A stretch of DNA of 53,602 nt from a bacterium (GTDB taxonomy: Bacteria; Cyanobacteriota; Vampirovibrionia; Gastranaerophilales; Gastranaerophilaceae), in the NCBI GenBank assembly GCA_017480425.1, contig JAFVAR010000035.1:1-53602 (forward strand), given 5' to 3'. The translations under genes and the position numbers were made by a program. Positions 23,903 through 32,188 of this stretch are shown here, in pieces. Position 1 is the first letter of the stretch; each line of letters starts with the position of its first letter. The notes under the pieces are model-generated. The model was not told the DNA's origin. It ran no database searches and saw nothing but the letters and a program-made list of their open reading frames with translations.

Positions 23903-24604
23903 ATGGGCAAAATAGAAATTACTAAGGAAATCGAAGAAAAATGCTGCGTGCACCGTGGTGTTAAAGGTTCTCCTGCTCCAATCCCTCAAGAAGGGGAATG
24001 GACAAAATGTAAAGAAATCAAAGACATTTCAGGTTTAACACACGGCTGCGGTTGTTGTGCTCCTCAACAAGGAACTTGTAAATTAACTTTGAACGTTAAA
24101 GAAGGTGTTATACAAGAAGCTCTTGTTGAAACAATCGGATGTTCCGGCATGACACACTCAGCTGCAATGGCAGGTGAAATCCTTCCCGGAAAAACTATTC
24201 TGGAAGCATTAAATACAGACCTTGTATGTGACGCTATAAATGTTGCTATGAGAGAATTATTCCTTCAAATTGTTTACGGAAGAACTCAATCAGCATTCTC
24301 TGAAAATGGTTTACCTGTTGGTGCAGGTCTTGAAGACCTCGGCAAGGGTTTATGCTCTATGTGTGGTACAATCCACTCTACAAAACAAAAAGGTGTAAGA
24401 TATCTTCAACTTACCGAAGGCTATATCTTGAAACTTGGTCTTGATAAGAATGACGAAGTTATCGGGTATCAATTTATCAACATGGGCAAATTTATGGATG
24501 CAATCAAAAAGGGTGTAAATCCTCAAGAAGCATTCGATAAGAATGTTGGTACATACGGCAGATTTGCTGATGCGGTTAAGTATATCGATCCTCGTGAAGA
24601 GTAG
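23903..24604 (+). CDS. Iron-sulfur cluster scaffold-like protein (NifU-N-type) partnered with GGGtGRT protein
   Basis: 233 residues and cysteine-rich: C14, C15, C36, C49, C51, C52, C59, C80, C109, C151 and C154. The segment LVETIGCSGMTHSAAMAGEILPGKT resembles the IscU/NifU N-terminal scaffold fold with its cluster-ligand cysteine. CCVHRG and HGCGCCAPQQGTC at the N-terminus and CSMCGTIHS later are specific to this family. Known genomes often pair it with a GGGtGRT protein, as here. Cluster assembly or transfer is inferred, and the client is unknown. GGAGG is 8 nt before the ATG. Confidence 0.8.
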   Translation: MGKIEITKEIEEKCCVHRGVKGSPAPIPQEGEWTKCKEIKDISGLTHGCGCCAPQQGTCKLTLNVKEGVIQEALVETIGCSGMTHSAAMAGEILPGKTILEALNTDLVCDAINVAMRELFLQIVYGRTQSAFSENGLPVGAGLEDLGKGLCSMCGTIHSTKQKGVRYLQLTEGYILKLGLDKNDEVIGYQFINMGKFMDAIKKGVNPQEAFDKNVGTYGRFADAVKYIDPREE

Positions 24605-24622
24605 AAATAAATATACAGATTC

Positions 24623-24692
24623 GTGAATCGTGAGCTGTGATTTGTGAATCGATATTAAAAAACGGCTCACGAGTCACAATATACGACTCACG
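24623..24692. repeat. Degenerate heptanucleotide repeats forming an inverted repeat
   Basis: Four GTGANNY-type heptamers at 24623-24650 are followed by a 13-nt spacer. Four more in reverse orientation lie at 24664-24691 (GGCTCAC, GAGTCAC, AATATAC, GACTCAC). The arms can pair imperfectly. It sits between the NifU-like and GGGtGRT genes. Confidence 0.7.
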
Positions 24693-24727
24693 TTATTACA
24701 ACAATAAAACTATAAAGGAAATAAATT

Positions 24728-25729
24728 ATGACAGTAAAATTTGAAGGACAAGATAGACGTGAAGCTACTTTAAAGAAAGTTTTACCTGAATATGGTTTCA
24801 AATCTTTAGAAGAAGCTCGTGATTTATGTCTGTCAAAAGGCATCGATGTAGATGCTATTGTTAAAGGCATTCAGCCTATCGCTTTTGATAACGCTTCTTG
24901 GGCATATACACTTGGTTGCGCTATTGCTATTAAAAAAGGTATTAAGACTGCTGCGGAAGCCGCTGAAGCAATAGGTTTAGGTTTGCAAGCATTTGCAGTT
25001 CCGGGCTCAGTCGGTGACAGAAGACAAGTTGGTATCGGTCACGGTAACTTAGCGGCAATGCTTTTAAGAGAAGAGACAAAATGCTTCTGCTTCTTAGCAG
25101 GTCACGAATCTTTTGCAGCCGCAGAAGGTGCTATCGGTATTGCTCGTAACGCTAACAAAGTTAGAAAAGAACCCTTAAGGGTTATTTTGAACGGTCTTGG
25201 AAAAGATGCAGCTCACGTCATTGCACGTATAAACGGTTTTACTTCTGTTGAAACGGAATATGACTACAAAACAGGCGAATTAAAAGTTGTTAAAGAAACT
25301 GCATTTTCTGAAGGTGAAAGAGCAAAAGTAAGATGTTACGGTGCGGATGACGTTAACGAAGGTGTTGCTATTATGATTAAAGAAGGTGTTGACGTTTCTA
25401 TTACAGGTAACTCAACTAACCCAACCCGTTTCCAACACCCTGTTGCAGGCACTTATAAAAAATGGTGCTGGGAAAACGGAAGGAAATATTTCTCAGTAGC
25501 TTCAGGCGGTGGTACAGGTCGTACATTGCACCCGGATAACGTTGCGGCAGGCCCTGCTTCTTACGGTATGACAGATACAATGGGAAGAATGCACGGAGAT
25601 GCTCAATTCGCAGGCTCTTCTTCTGTTCCTGCTCACGTAGAAATGATGGGCGTAATAGGTATGGGCAACAACCCGATGGTAGGTGCTACTGTTGCAGTTG
25701 CAGTTGCAGTAGAAAAGGCTATGGCTTAG
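24728..25729 (+). CDS. GGGtGRT family protein
   Basis: 333 residues containing the name-giving SGGGTGRTLHPDNVAAGPASYG motif near residues 257-278. VPGSVGDRRQVGIGHGNLAAMLL, AGHESFAAAEGAIGIARNANKVRKEP (quoted in parts) and a C-terminal HVEMMGVIGMGNNPMVGATVAVAVAVEKAM are conserved in style. The family (Pfam GGGtGRT) has no assigned activity. Its constant partner is the NifU-like scaffold immediately upstream, so a metal or Fe-S dependent function is plausible. AAGGA precedes the ATG, and a strong terminator follows. Confidence 0.9.
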   Translation: MTVKFEGQDRREATLKKVLPEYGFKSLEEARDLCLSKGIDVDAIVKGIQPIAFDNASWAYTLGCAIAIKKGIKTAAEAAEAIGLGLQAFAVPGSVGDRRQVGIGHGNLAAMLLREETKCFCFLAGHESFAAAEGAIGIARNANKVRKEPLRVILNGLGKDAAHVIARINGFTSVETEYDYKTGELKVVKETAFSEGERAKVRCYGADDVNEGVAIMIKEGVDVSITGNSTNPTRFQHPVAGTYKKWCWENGRKYFSVASGGGTGRTLHPDNVAAGPASYGMTDTMGRMHGDAQFAGSSSVPAHVEMMGVIGMGNNPMVGATVAVAVAVEKAMA

Positions 25730-25796: not shown

Positions 25797-27290
25797 TTAT
25801 GAATAAACAAACGGAGGCCCGTTCTTAATTTCAAAAAGAATATTATCCGCTACAACCTTAAGTTCTTGCGGAGATTTCCCACTCCTTTTTTGCAGATAAA
25901 ATTCATGACAAAGAGGTTCTATAGCAGAATCTTTTTTTGCTTTAAAATTTCTTAACTCAGTAGCGACAAGACGTTTTTGAAGGTTTAATTCAATATCAGC
26001 AGAATATTTTTTTACTTGAACTTCCTTTATTGCTTCTGCAGCTGCTTTACCGCCATAGGCTAATGCAGAAATTCCTGCTATTCCAAAGAATAAATTTTTA
26101 AACTGAGGATTTTTGGGATTCATCAGCCAATCGTAGAAGAATGATAAATAGTCATTTACATGAGAAAAATATGTTATCTTGTTTCTTCCGGAACCGCCTA
26201 TAGTTGGGTTAACTTTTTCTGTTGCCTGATTCATTGAATCTTTTAATTGTTTTATGAATTCAGTTTTTTCAGTTTTTGTCAAATTCATTTTATTTACAGT
26301 TTTTTCAATTTCATCAGGGGTGGCATAAATCGATTCTAACATATTTTCTATTAACAACTTATAAGCAGGTTTTCCTGAGAGGATTTCACCGTTATGACCT
26401 TCCAGTCTGTTTATTTTTTTGCCGGAATTAAATTCATCTATAATATTATCCAGTCCTTTTTTAGTATTCTTTATTCCGTTTTTTATAAATTCATCACTTC
26501 TTCTTATATTGTGAGATGCATAATATCCGAGTCCTAATATCGATAGAAGTGTAATTGCCGCAATACCCAAAAGTTTTGTTGAACTATTTATTTGTGATGT
26601 ATTTTCGCTCTTTCTGTTTGATTTGAAAGCTAATTCCGAAGAAAAAATTTTGGCTTTTGAAGAAAGCATGCTTCTTATTATTTGCAGTTTCCCGGAAAAA
26701 GATTGTGTTTCAACTGCAATAAGGTTTTCTTGTAAGTTTTTTTGAATATCTGCTTCCTGACGTTTTACCCAAACTTCTTTAAAACCGTCTATAAATATTT
26801 TCCCCATAAATGCGGTTGCACCAAGCGTTATTACTCCAATAGAGGCAAGAATGGTTTTACGATTCGGAGACTGAATCATTGAAAATATGCTTTGATGTAT
26901 TTCATCATTAATACAATGATTTCTTGTTATTCCCGGGAGAAGGTATTCTTTTGAAGATTCCAATTTATTTTTAGAAAACTTTTTCATCATAGAAGTGAAG
27001 GCTCCTAAAAGAGCCATCACACCAATAGTTATTCCGCATAGCGGATATATAGGATTATGTGTTTTTTGTTCTTTATGAAAAAGTTTTTTGGGTAGCGCAA
27101 TTTGATTTTTTGATATTACCAATGAATCATAAGTTTCATCGAGGCTTAAATTAGGATCTTTAACATAAGAATTTACTATGATACCTTCTTTAACATAAGT
27201 ATCATTGCGTTTTTGAGTGTTAGTCATATTTTTTTGATGTCTTGTACTTTCAAGATCCTGATTTATTTTCATCCCTGTTACTTGAGTCAT
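25797..27290 (-). CDS. Unknown multi-pass membrane protein with internal duplication
   Basis: 497 residues with four hydrophobic segments (about 82-100, 147-165, 239-258, 399-420) separated by Lys/Asn-rich regions. Two related modules follow segments 2 and 4: residues 170-201 (FKEVWVKRQEADIQKNLQ...) and 421-452 (IKEVQVKKYSADIELNLQ...) share KEV-VK--ADI--NLQ--L-A-E---F. I know no family for it. AAGGA lies 9 nt before the ATG. It overlaps the upstream gene by 41 bp, so expression is tied to it and to the riboswitch ahead of that gene. Confidence 0.65.
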   Translation of the reverse strand: MTQVTGMKINQDLESTRHQKNMTNTQKRNDTYVKEGIIVNSYVKDPNLSLDETYDSLVISKNQIALPKKLFHKEQKTHNPIYPLCGITIGVMALLGAFTSMMKKFSKNKLESSKEYLLPGITRNHCINDEIHQSIFSMIQSPNRKTILASIGVITLGATAFMGKIFIDGFKEVWVKRQEADIQKNLQENLIAVETQSFSGKLQIIRSMLSSKAKIFSSELAFKSNRKSENTSQINSSTKLLGIAAITLLSILGLGYYASHNIRRSDEFIKNGIKNTKKGLDNIIDEFNSGKKINRLEGHNGEILSGKPAYKLLIENMLESIYATPDEIEKTVNKMNLTKTEKTEFIKQLKDSMNQATEKVNPTIGGSGRNKITYFSHVNDYLSFFYDWLMNPKNPQFKNLFFGIAGISALAYGGKAAAEAIKEVQVKKYSADIELNLQKRLVATELRNFKAKKDSAIEPLCHEFYLQKRSGKSPQELKVVADNILFEIKNGPPFVYS

Positions 27291-27939
27291 CTTTATTTTT
27301 CCTTAAAATTTTATTAATAAACGTTTTTAGCCTAAATATTTTTTTATCTTCATCAATTTTTGTTTCATCATCTTTTGTATTATTTCGCTTGAAAATTTTA
27401 AATAAACTTTCAAATTTTGATTTAACAGAACTTACGATTTCAGACATTTTCTTTTGGATAAATGCCTTTACTTCGCCAAATATTGCATTCAATTTATCTT
27501 GTATATCTATTTTTAGTTGAGAAAATTTATTAAAAATATTATGCACAAAATTTGGTAATGCTTTTAAAAGATTTACTAACGGTAAAATTGTAATATTTAA
27601 AGTAAATGCGATAGGTTTAAGCATAATATTTTGTGAAAGCTTGGAAATAAATTGTGAAATTTTTTCGGAAATTTGCATTAAATTTTGTTCAAAAGATTTT
27701 ATGGCTTCAGCCCTGTCAAGCAAATTCTTTTCGTGTTCTTCTATTCGAGCTTCTCTGGCTCTCATCATTGCGCCAATCATAGCACACTGATGATAAGACA
27801 TTTCGCCTGCTTTCTGCGGTCTTTCACCAATTCTCGAACCGCCTCCCATGCCTGAACATATAGGACAAGCAGCCGGTGAACAACCATGCGGACAAGTACC
27901 TGCATTTATTTTATTTACATTTTGTACAGAATTAGCCAA
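27250..27939 (-). CDS. Unknown protein with N-terminal CPHGC/CPIC cysteine cluster
   Basis: 229 residues from a TTG start. No ATG is available upstream of the conserved N-terminus INAGTCPHGCSPAACPICSG. C16-x3-C20-x4-C25-x2-C28 forms a zinc- or Fe-S-type knuckle. A Gly-rich link, MMRAREARIEEHEKNLLDRAEAI helices and a hydrophobic/amphipathic middle (105-135) follow, then a highly charged Lys/Asp tail. I have the impression this N-terminus recurs in gut Melainabacteria, but cannot verify it. The ribosome site AAGAAAG is buried in a 16-bp hairpin downstream of a cobalamin-type aptamer. Confidence 0.6.
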   Translation of the reverse strand: MANSVQNVNKINAGTCPHGCSPAACPICSGMGGGSRIGERPQKAGEMSYHQCAMIGAMMRAREARIEEHEKNLLDRAEAIKSFEQNLMQISEKISQFISKLSQNIMLKPIAFTLNITILPLVNLLKALPNFVHNIFNKFSQLKIDIQDKLNAIFGEVKAFIQKKMSEIVSSVKSKFESLFKIFKRNNTKDDETKIDEDKKIFRLKTFINKILRKNKDDSSNRDENKSGS

Positions 27940-27941
27940 TA

Positions 27942-28131
27942 AATTATTCTTTCTTGCAATTTATGTACCGCAAGCAAAGAATAATTCAACGCTCTGGTCA
28001 CGAAGCATTGATTCTTATTTGGGAGGACATAAAAACGGTAATAAAATTAATGCGTTATCTTTTGTCCCTTCCGGCTTTAACGGCTGCGGCACAGTCGGGG
28101 ACTTTCACCCCTGGTTTCCACATATTCAGTT
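27942..28131 (-). promoter_or_regulatory. Probable cobalamin riboswitch with ribosome-site-sequestering hairpin
   Basis: Read on the minus strand. TGGAAACC precedes the stem-loop GGGG-TGAAAGT-CCCC (P4 with the UGAAANU loop), then GACTGTGCCGCAGCCGTTA (P5/L5), which matches the core consensus of cobalamin aptamers. CAATGCT...AGCGTTG (about 28011-27988) would be a P13-like hairpin. The 3' half fits the consensus less well. The expression platform is explicit: 27986-27970 pairs with 27957-27942 (16 bp, one bulge) and covers AAGAAAG just before the TTG start at 27939. A promoter TTTACT-N17-TACGAT lies at 28166-28138. Vitamin B12 forms would be expected to shut off translation of the two genes downstream. 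Confidence 0.65.
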
Positions 28132-28200
28132 TATTCTATCGTAATATAATAATCAAAAATAGTAAAGCATCTTTCCTCTTTATATTTATCCCTTTTGTTA

Positions 28201-28206
28201 TATAAT
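28201..28206 (+). promoter_or_regulatory. TATAAT 6 nt before MATE gene ATG (leaderless)
   Basis: A perfect TATAAT is followed by six bases (CGTTCT) and the ATG at 28213. No ribosome site is visible, and the -35 is weak. Confidence 0.6.
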
Positions 28207-28212
28207 CGTTCT

Positions 28213-29517
28213 ATGCAAAGCCGAAATTTTTACGCAAAAGATATTCTTAAAATAGCCCTTCCTATTATTTTGGGAAATTTGGGATTTATTCTTATTGGCG
28301 TTGGTGATGTTGTTGTTGCGGGAAGACATTCAACAGTCACTCTGGCTGCAATAAGCCTTGCTACCGCAATAACAAATTGCTTAATGATTCTCGGAATAGG
28401 AATATTGGGGAGCATTTCTGCAATTCTTTCTAACTATAGAGGTGAAGGCAGAGAAATAGAAAAATATTTTTATCCGGCTCTGAGATTTGGAATTATTCTG
28501 GCAACGATTATTTGTTTTTTGATTTTATGCTGTATTCCTCTTATTGAGAGACTGGGTTTTGAACCGCAATTAACAGTCATGATAAAAGATTACTTCTTTA
28601 TAACAGCTTTTGCTACTTTTGGAGGATACCTGCACTGTATGGCAAAAGAGTATTTGCAAGCTTTTGAAATTGTTGTTTTCCCAAATATATTAACAATTTT
28701 TTGTATATTTTTAAATGTTGCTCTAAATATTATTTTAGCATTCGGATGCGGATGCATTCCGGAAATGGGTGCAAAAGGTTTGGCAATTGCAAGTCTGATA
28801 ACAAGATATTTTATGGGGCTTGTACTTATTGCTTATTGTTTCAAAAAAGTTAAAATAAAATGCGGAAAGACTCATGGTTTCTGCCATGATTTAATAAAAG
28901 TAGGAGTTCCTGCGTCATTGGCAGTGATGATAGAGTTTATGGGATTTAATATTATTGCAGTTATTATGGGAAGAGTTTCAGGCATATATGCAGCTGCTCA
29001 CAACATTATGTGTACATTAACCAGTGTCTCTTTTATGATTCCGCTGGCTCTGTCTAATGCAACTGCAGTAAAAGTAGGATTCGCAAACGGAGCAAAATAT
29101 TATAACTCAATGAAAAAATATGCATTTACTTGTATTAAAATTTCTGTCGGATTTATGGCTTGCTCAGCTTTATTAATAGGTATGTTTGCGGAATTTTGGA
29201 CAGGTTTATTTACAAAAGACATTGAACTTATAAAGGTTTGTATACCTATAGCTTATGTATTGTGCTTCTTCCAAGTTTTTGACGGTCTTCAAGTATCACT
29301 TGCAGGAATTTTCAAAGGAATGAAACAGACAAGGGTTGTTATGCTTTCAAATATTATCGGCTATTGGTTTATTGCTTTTCCTCTCGGATATGTTCTTGCA
29401 TTTAAATATAACTTAAATTTGTTGGGCTTTTGGATTGCACTTGGAGTTTCCGCTATTGTTTTGTGCTCAATTATGTTAATATCTATGTTAATGAAATTTA
29501 AAAAGTTGGAGTCATGA
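28213..29517 (+). CDS. MATE-family efflux transporter
   Basis: 434 residues with twelve predicted membrane segments in two related halves, as in NorM/DinF proteins. Family traits include LPIILGNLGFILIGVGDVVVAG near the start and VGVPASLAVMIEFMGFNIIAVIMGRVSG at the beginning of the second half (quoted in parts). It would export cationic compounds by Na+ or H+ antiport. The start at 28213 is set by the adjacent -10 box. The stop overlaps the rsmE start in ATGA. Confidence 0.9.
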   Translation: MQSRNFYAKDILKIALPIILGNLGFILIGVGDVVVAGRHSTVTLAAISLATAITNCLMILGIGILGSISAILSNYRGEGREIEKYFYPALRFGIILATIICFLILCCIPLIERLGFEPQLTVMIKDYFFITAFATFGGYLHCMAKEYLQAFEIVVFPNILTIFCIFLNVALNIILAFGCGCIPEMGAKGLAIASLITRYFMGLVLIAYCFKKVKIKCGKTHGFCHDLIKVGVPASLAVMIEFMGFNIIAVIMGRVSGIYAAAHNIMCTLTSVSFMIPLALSNATAVKVGFANGAKYYNSMKKYAFTCIKISVGFMACSALLIGMFAEFWTGLFTKDIELIKVCIPIAYVLCFFQVFDGLQVSLAGIFKGMKQTRVVMLSNIIGYWFIAFPLGYVLAFKYNLNLLGFWIALGVSAIVLCSIMLISMLMKFKKLES

Positions 29518-31681: not shown

Positions 31682-32188
31682 ATGAAATTAGCTCTCGCTC
31701 CAATCAGCTTTTTAGGGCAACCTAAAAACTACGCAATTGTCGATAGATATGTATCCCGCTCAGCACAACCTCAGGCGGATGATTTTGCGTGGCTTAAAGC
31801 TCAAGGGGTTACGGATATTTTTAATTTTCGTACAATGTATGCTCCTGATATTAATTTTGATGAAAAAGCCGTGGTTGAAGGGCTCGGAATGAATTATCAC
31901 TTAATTCCCACAAATACAAAAGAACCGACAGAAAAAGGTATTCTTATATTTTTGGATGGAATTAAAAAAGTAATCAAAAACGGGGGAAAAGCCCATATTC
32001 ATTGCAAAGCAGGAGCTGACCGAACAGGCATGTATACATATGTATACAAATCGGTAAACGGTATTGGGGACCGTGTTTTAAACCAGTTGGAAATGCTGCA
32101 ATACGGGCATAACACCACAATATTTCCTAACCTTATTCCGTGGGTAAATGAATTAATTAATAAAATGTTAAAAACTTTAAAAAAATAA
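31682..32188 (+). CDS. Dual-specificity / tyrosine phosphatase-like protein
   Basis: 168 residues. The CX5R signature H107-C108-KAGAD-R114-T sits in IHCKAGADRTGMYTYV, with a candidate general-acid aspartate upstream. VSRSAQPQADDFAWLKAQGVTDIFNFRT matches the N-terminal part of small bacterial/plant-type DSPs. The N-terminus LAPISFLGQP resembles the SFxG motif of other short proteins in this lineage. Substrate unknown. A TATAAT lies at the end of cca and AAGGAG precedes the ATG, so it probably has its own promoter. Confidence 0.82.
   Translation: MKLALAPISFLGQPKNYAIVDRYVSRSAQPQADDFAWLKAQGVTDIFNFRTMYAPDINFDEKAVVEGLGMNYHLIPTNTKEPTEKGILIFLDGIKKVIKNGGKAHIHCKAGADRTGMYTYVYKSVNGIGDRVLNQLEMLQYGHNTTIFPNLIPWVNELINKMLKTLKK

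Follow-up and report, generated by a model that had tools for sequence, protein, structure and literature searches.

Typical members of B12 regulons are metE, the class III reductase and BtuB. A kissing loop between L5 and L13 is known from cobalamin riboswitches (PMC9600662), and BtuG and BtuH of Bacteroides, once-unknown proteins found through cobamide riboswitch control, bind B12 and are encoded in loci with cobamide transport genes (PMC8941943, PMC10404256). Here we analysed a 53,602-nt stretch of DNA from a Gastranaerophilales bacterium (hereafter the window), in which a minus-strand leader precedes a two-gene operon. Like BtuG and BtuH, the two products are unknown gut-bacterial proteins found through cobamide riboswitch control; unlike them, they are encoded in an operon of two genes in which no part of a transporter is recognisable, and they have no family or fold match. 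The leader shares with AdoCbl-II (RF01689, clan CL00101) the P4-L4-P5-P6 core, the whole model aligns to it, and aptamers of this type precede B12-regulon genes in sister genomes. It differs in its score (26.6 bits against a threshold of 36.5), in an extra hairpin after P6, in an L13 altered in its genus and in an L5 that would double as the target of an anti-aptamer element. The core logic and, outside the window's genus, the L5-L13 kissing loop (PMC9600662) are shared with the Cobalamin riboswitch RF00174, whereas the window's own assembly holds no RF00174 match.

At gathering thresholds, Rfam returned a tRNA as the sole match in the window and no riboswitch. With relaxed filters, RF01689 matched end to end at 28133-28055 on the minus strand, with an E-value of 4.6e-4 when 451 nt were searched and of 3.7e-4 across the entire assembly of this genome, at a score of 26.6 bits that lies under the 36.5-bit gathering score. 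This was the single RF01689 match in the assembly (1.54 Mb, about 70% complete), and RF00174 gave 0 matches anywhere in it. The sequence-only reading of this DNA, which had called the leader a cobalamin-type riboswitch and named both models as a check, was thus borne out by RF01689, significant though under the gathering score, and not by RF00174. The hairpin inserted downstream of P6 and ahead of the 3' strand of P3 probably explains the low score of the window copy. Taken alone, the predicted core exceeds chance yet stays below the curation threshold, and it is the comparative evidence that settles the assignment as a riboswitch. Judged by sequence comparison, the window leader is a divergent cobalamin-clan aptamer, a structural variant of the known AdoCbl-II.

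The leader is about 190 nt long and runs on the minus strand, as do all its elements, from about 28130 to 27937, before a TTG-started gene. Transcription would start near 28130, from a candidate promoter with consensus resemblance only (28138-28166), which consists of TTTACT (28166-28161), a 17-nt spacer and TACGAT (28143-28138); in the comparison of leader sequences, a TTACGAT-type motif was seen again before the aptamer in relatives. The aptamer core (28055-28133; RF01689, 26.6 bits; cobalamin clan, closest to AdoCbl-II) contains GGAAACC, the P4 strands GGGG and CCCC around TGAAAGT, GACTGTGCCGCAGCC and CCG...CGG. The B12-aptamer elements GGGG-TGAAAGT-CCCC (28111-28097) and GACTGTGCCGCAGCC (28096-28082) are present as had been claimed. 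P4 pairs 28111-28108 with 28100-28097 around L4 (TGAAAGT, 28107-28101), P5/L5 occupies 28093-28085, and P6 pairs 28083-28081 with 28073-28071, with P4 and P6 backed by covariation in 107 sequences. Sequence comparison and the predicted fold placed an inserted hairpin, GGGACA...TGTCC, after P6 (28025-28068), and the fold further predicted a P13-like hairpin with loop CGTGACCA (27987-28010), for which relatives have an equivalent. The leaders of L036 and L116 also contain a minisatellite of the GGGGTAAAT type, repeated several times in tandem and situated downstream of the aptamer core and upstream of the P13-like hairpin.

The last element before the start codon is a start-sequestering hairpin (27941-27986; arms 27986-27970 and 27957-27941), present in the minimum-free-energy fold and with the same architecture in relatives. 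A hairpin of 27986-27970 with 27957-27942 before the TTG at 27939 had already been described and is there, but the ribosome site that it was said to hide has a weaker Shine-Dalgarno than claimed. In relatives, whose order is AAGAGAGGA(T)n and then a TTG or ATG start, the 3' arm is the position of the Shine-Dalgarno, and the window has a poor one (AAGAAAG) where they carry AAGAGAGGA. The predicted fold of the window leader had a z of -4.0, and equal stability was reached in 0 of 200 shuffles.

Across 107 distinct cores, 96.4% of cells in P4, P5 and P6 were paired, with 134 double-sided changes compared to 32 in shuffled data. P4 alone showed GC, AU, CG and UA, and one P6 pair showed CG, UA, AU and GC; P5 was nearly invariant and so uninformative for covariation, and the aptamer core positions were invariant. 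Across the set, P3 had a mean length of 3.95, compared to 2.86 with shuffled partners. In the window copy P3 has no direct partner, its partner strand being displaced by the inserted hairpin; this hairpin was found only in the window's subclade (the window, L012/L104, L013/L120 and L111), where the direct P3 partner is missing. Outside the window's genus, L5 and L13 covaried and were complementary in 38 of 49 leaders (shuffled 16.8, maximum 27), compared to 2 of 43 in the usual register within the genus. Inspection by eye of a GACU/AGUC pairing that might have supplied a partner for L13 in the genus showed it to be inconsistent.

An anti-L5 element, TTGCGGTACA (27964-27973), is complementary to the window's L5, TGTGCCGCAG (28093-28084), over 10 contiguous pairs, with a score of 23 compared to a shuffled maximum of 19. 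The genus carries this as a conserved element with consensus GTTGCGGCA, the reverse complement of L5 TGCCGCAAC. The same GTTGCGGCA element doubles as the 5' arm of the last hairpin; in relatives, the opposite (3') arm carries AAGAGAGGA and a U-run. At the variable L5 position, the anti-L5 base followed L5, an A being matched by T and a G mostly by C (57 leaders; Fisher p 2.6e-5, uncorrected for ancestry). Without ligand, the nascent RNA would pair the anti-L5 element (27973-27964) with L5 (28093-28084), and, as that element shares positions with the 5' arm of the long hairpin, the hairpin would be blocked and the start region left open. With ligand, the aptamer (P3-P6, with P13 nearby) would hold L5 and free the anti-L5 element, and the hairpin would then cover the ribosome-binding region and shut off translation, perhaps also transcription; in relatives the putative sequestering hairpin directly precedes the U-run. 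In the full leader the sequestered form was favoured over the anti-L5 form by about 12 kcal/mol; switching would therefore have to take place while the RNA is being transcribed, under kinetic control. A recognisable anti-L5 site was found in only 57 of 120 leaders, which ruled out a universal anti-L5 mechanism, and many of the remaining genera appear to rely on another competing pair. TCCTC...GAGGA hairpins are seen in other genera and could compete with the 5' strand of P3 instead. The OFF direction is most likely, being the simplest reading of the predicted switch, and we consider it highly probable that the leader is an AdoCbl-II-like riboswitch that turns the two-gene operon off when corrinoid is plentiful.

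RF01689 matched in 133 of 146 family genomes (113 above the gathering score), and the genomes in which named relatives of gene 2 were found are Candidatus Gastranaerophilales or Melainabacteria, often of rumen origin. Of 79 further named orthologous loci whose first gene could be read, at least 78 had the aptamer core upstream of gene 1. Outside the family, gene 1 was present in 14 genomes, 12 of which, spanning four other families, had the aptamer directly upstream. The expected conservation at orthologues was thereby confirmed, and in the window's genus the aptamer was kept at nearly every operon orthologue. We read 69 distinct aptamer sites, a sample deliberately enriched for second aptamer copies: 47 were upstream of the CPHG operon, 20 upstream of nrdD (with nrdG), 1 upstream of a TonB receptor with BtuC- and BtuD-like genes behind it, and 1 upstream of a radical-SAM gene of the B12-binding kind. 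The AdoCbl-II aptamer also preceded metE, nrdD and BtuB-type receptors in other families of the order. Because aptamers of the same type nearby control nrdDG, metE and BtuB/BtuCD-type genes, the ligand sensed by this predicted aptamer is almost certainly a corrinoid. With nrdDG and metE, which are B12-repressed replacements, the CPHG operon shares an aptamer type common to the same genomes and order, but it differs from them in having no known B12-dependent counterpart.

Individual loci showed further arrangements. In L065 (G058:C8), two divergent aptamers about 1.6 kb apart stand before the CPHG operon and before nrdD. In L054 (G032:C1:219802-219877), the aptamer is directly 5' of a TIGR04190-like B12-binding radical-SAM gene. 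In G025 (L061) and G030 (L090), gene 1 is under the aptamer, the genome has no recognisable gene 2, and a shorter reading frame follows gene 1.

Gene 1 (27250-27939, minus strand; TTG start at 27939) encodes 229 aa with a CPHG-x5-CPxC Cys/His cluster followed by long helices. Across 68 sequences, C16, P17, H18, G19, C25, P26, C28, C52 and E156 were invariant; the model consists of long helices and is moderately confident (mean pLDDT 74, pTM 0.43). Gene 2 (25797-27290, minus strand) overlaps the end of gene 1 and encodes an internally duplicated membrane protein of 497 aa, with about four predicted membrane segments, an internal repeat (E 3e-10 over 50 aa) and a helical model (mean pLDDT 70); it is better conserved than gene 1. 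Searches of both proteins against Pfam, NCBIfam, PHROG, PDB sequences and Foldseek, with models that were only moderately confident, gave no credible relative. Neither protein has a Pfam family, and thus no TonB plug or FecCD domain; neither has a B12-binding domain or solved-structure match (Pfam/NCBIfam, PDB sequence and Foldseek), and no ATPase, porin or signal peptide was evident. The earlier statement that both match no known B12 family was thus upheld in Pfam, NCBIfam, PDB and Foldseek. A weak likeness of gene 1 to phage tape-measure proteins was put down to the usual similarity of helical repeats, and a phage or plasmid origin was rejected, gene 2 being without relatives among viral contigs and gene 1 without relatives among plasmids. 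As no family model matched and searches of open-access text gave nothing tying Melainabacteria or Gastranaerophilales to cobalamin riboswitches, the gene pair appears undescribed. Around the operon, the window carries a NifU-N-like protein adjoining a GGGtGRT protein (PF14057, 644 bits; 23903-25729), convergent with the operon; a MATE-family transporter gene (28195-29517), divergent from the leader and with no riboswitch of its own seen; and a small dual-specificity phosphatase-like protein (PF22785, 34 bits; 31682-32188).

Four readings of these data were weighed. That the window merely resembles a riboswitch by chance would fit its score under the gathering threshold, but orthologue conservation, covariation and the shared regulon led us to reject a chance match as extremely improbable; together with the RF01689 match, they support a cobalamin-type riboswitch before two uncharacterised proteins, as first proposed. 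In another reading the aptamer is real, and in the window's genus its ligand has shifted or ligand control has been lost, leaving the leader constitutive or differently regulated. The loss of L5-L13 fit in the genus (2 of 43), the hairpin insertion with the lost P3 partner in the subclade and the few B12-dependent enzymes in the genus speak for it. The invariant core and the aptamer kept at nearly every genus orthologue argue for continued function, however, and the genus has kept radical-SAM proteins that carry a B12-binding domain, so that we regard a shifted ligand or lost ligand control as improbable. The other two readings accept corrinoid control and differ in what the operon does. It could be a previously unknown system for corrinoid acquisition or intracellular handling, working instead of or beside BtuBCDF, with corrinoid bound by the Cys/His cluster of gene 1 and gene 2 as the membrane partner. 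Alternatively, and as the main rival, it could be a B12-sparing or envelope response under B12 scarcity that replaces or compensates a B12-dependent step.

The gene content of 45 family genomes bears on both. CbiC was found in 0 of 45; two other families of the order gave positives and served as internal control. The importer survey covered FecCD and the TonB plug; the FecCD permease was found in 3 of 45 and the TonB plug in the identical three, both being absent in 42. The B12-dependent ribonucleotide reductase NrdJ was nonetheless above cut-off in 30 of 45, a B12-binding_2 domain (MetH type) was found in 5, and QueG in 0 over cut-off. The operon, scored by gene 2, was present in 37 of 45, and genomes without gene 2 were mostly without NrdJ (Fisher p 0.025 over the 45 genomes, uncorrected for ancestry). 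Most family members thus appear to use B12 while neither making the corrin ring nor possessing a classical importer. Because of this profile, and because the operon is the most widespread riboswitch target in the family genomes, acquisition or handling is the leading guess; the riboswitch-linked BtuG and BtuH, which proved to be B12 binders (PMC8941943, PMC10404256), provide a precedent. Against it, no transporter fold, ATPase, porin or signal peptide was seen, the operon occurs alongside the TonB receptor/FecCD set in G012, G038 and G049 and alongside BtuB-type genes in G205 and G210, and the window's genus retains it though NrdJ (0 of 6 genomes in the set) and QueG are absent and MetH is rare (2 of 6). 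QueG, considered as the source of the B12 need in this genus, had no match above cut-off. We rate acquisition or handling as possible, at somewhat less than an even chance. A B12-sparing role seems rather unlikely: the same aptamers govern nrdDG and metE, the classic replacements, and the operon is retained where few recognisable B12-dependent enzymes are left, but neither protein is enzyme-like, and the helical models show no catalytic-looking fold.

We infer that the operon is part of the B12-scarcity response of Gastranaerophilales, and the 'new B12-linked system' of the sequence-only reading stands as a hypothesis. The fuller proposal, that the CPHG protein joins its duplicated membrane partner in a new, Gastranaerophilales-specific system for corrinoid acquisition or handling under a remodelled cobalamin riboswitch, is tentative and somewhat doubtful. 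If it is true, the system would serve B12-auxotrophic gut bacteria that have no BtuBCD as a means of obtaining or managing B12. The leader illustrates how a cobalamin riboswitch can be rebuilt, with a hairpin after P6, a changed L13 and a predicted anti-L5 switch. Gastranaerophilales are common uncultured relatives of cyanobacteria in the gut and rumen, and the operon, present in most family genomes, offers two concrete proteins for asking how they obtain B12.
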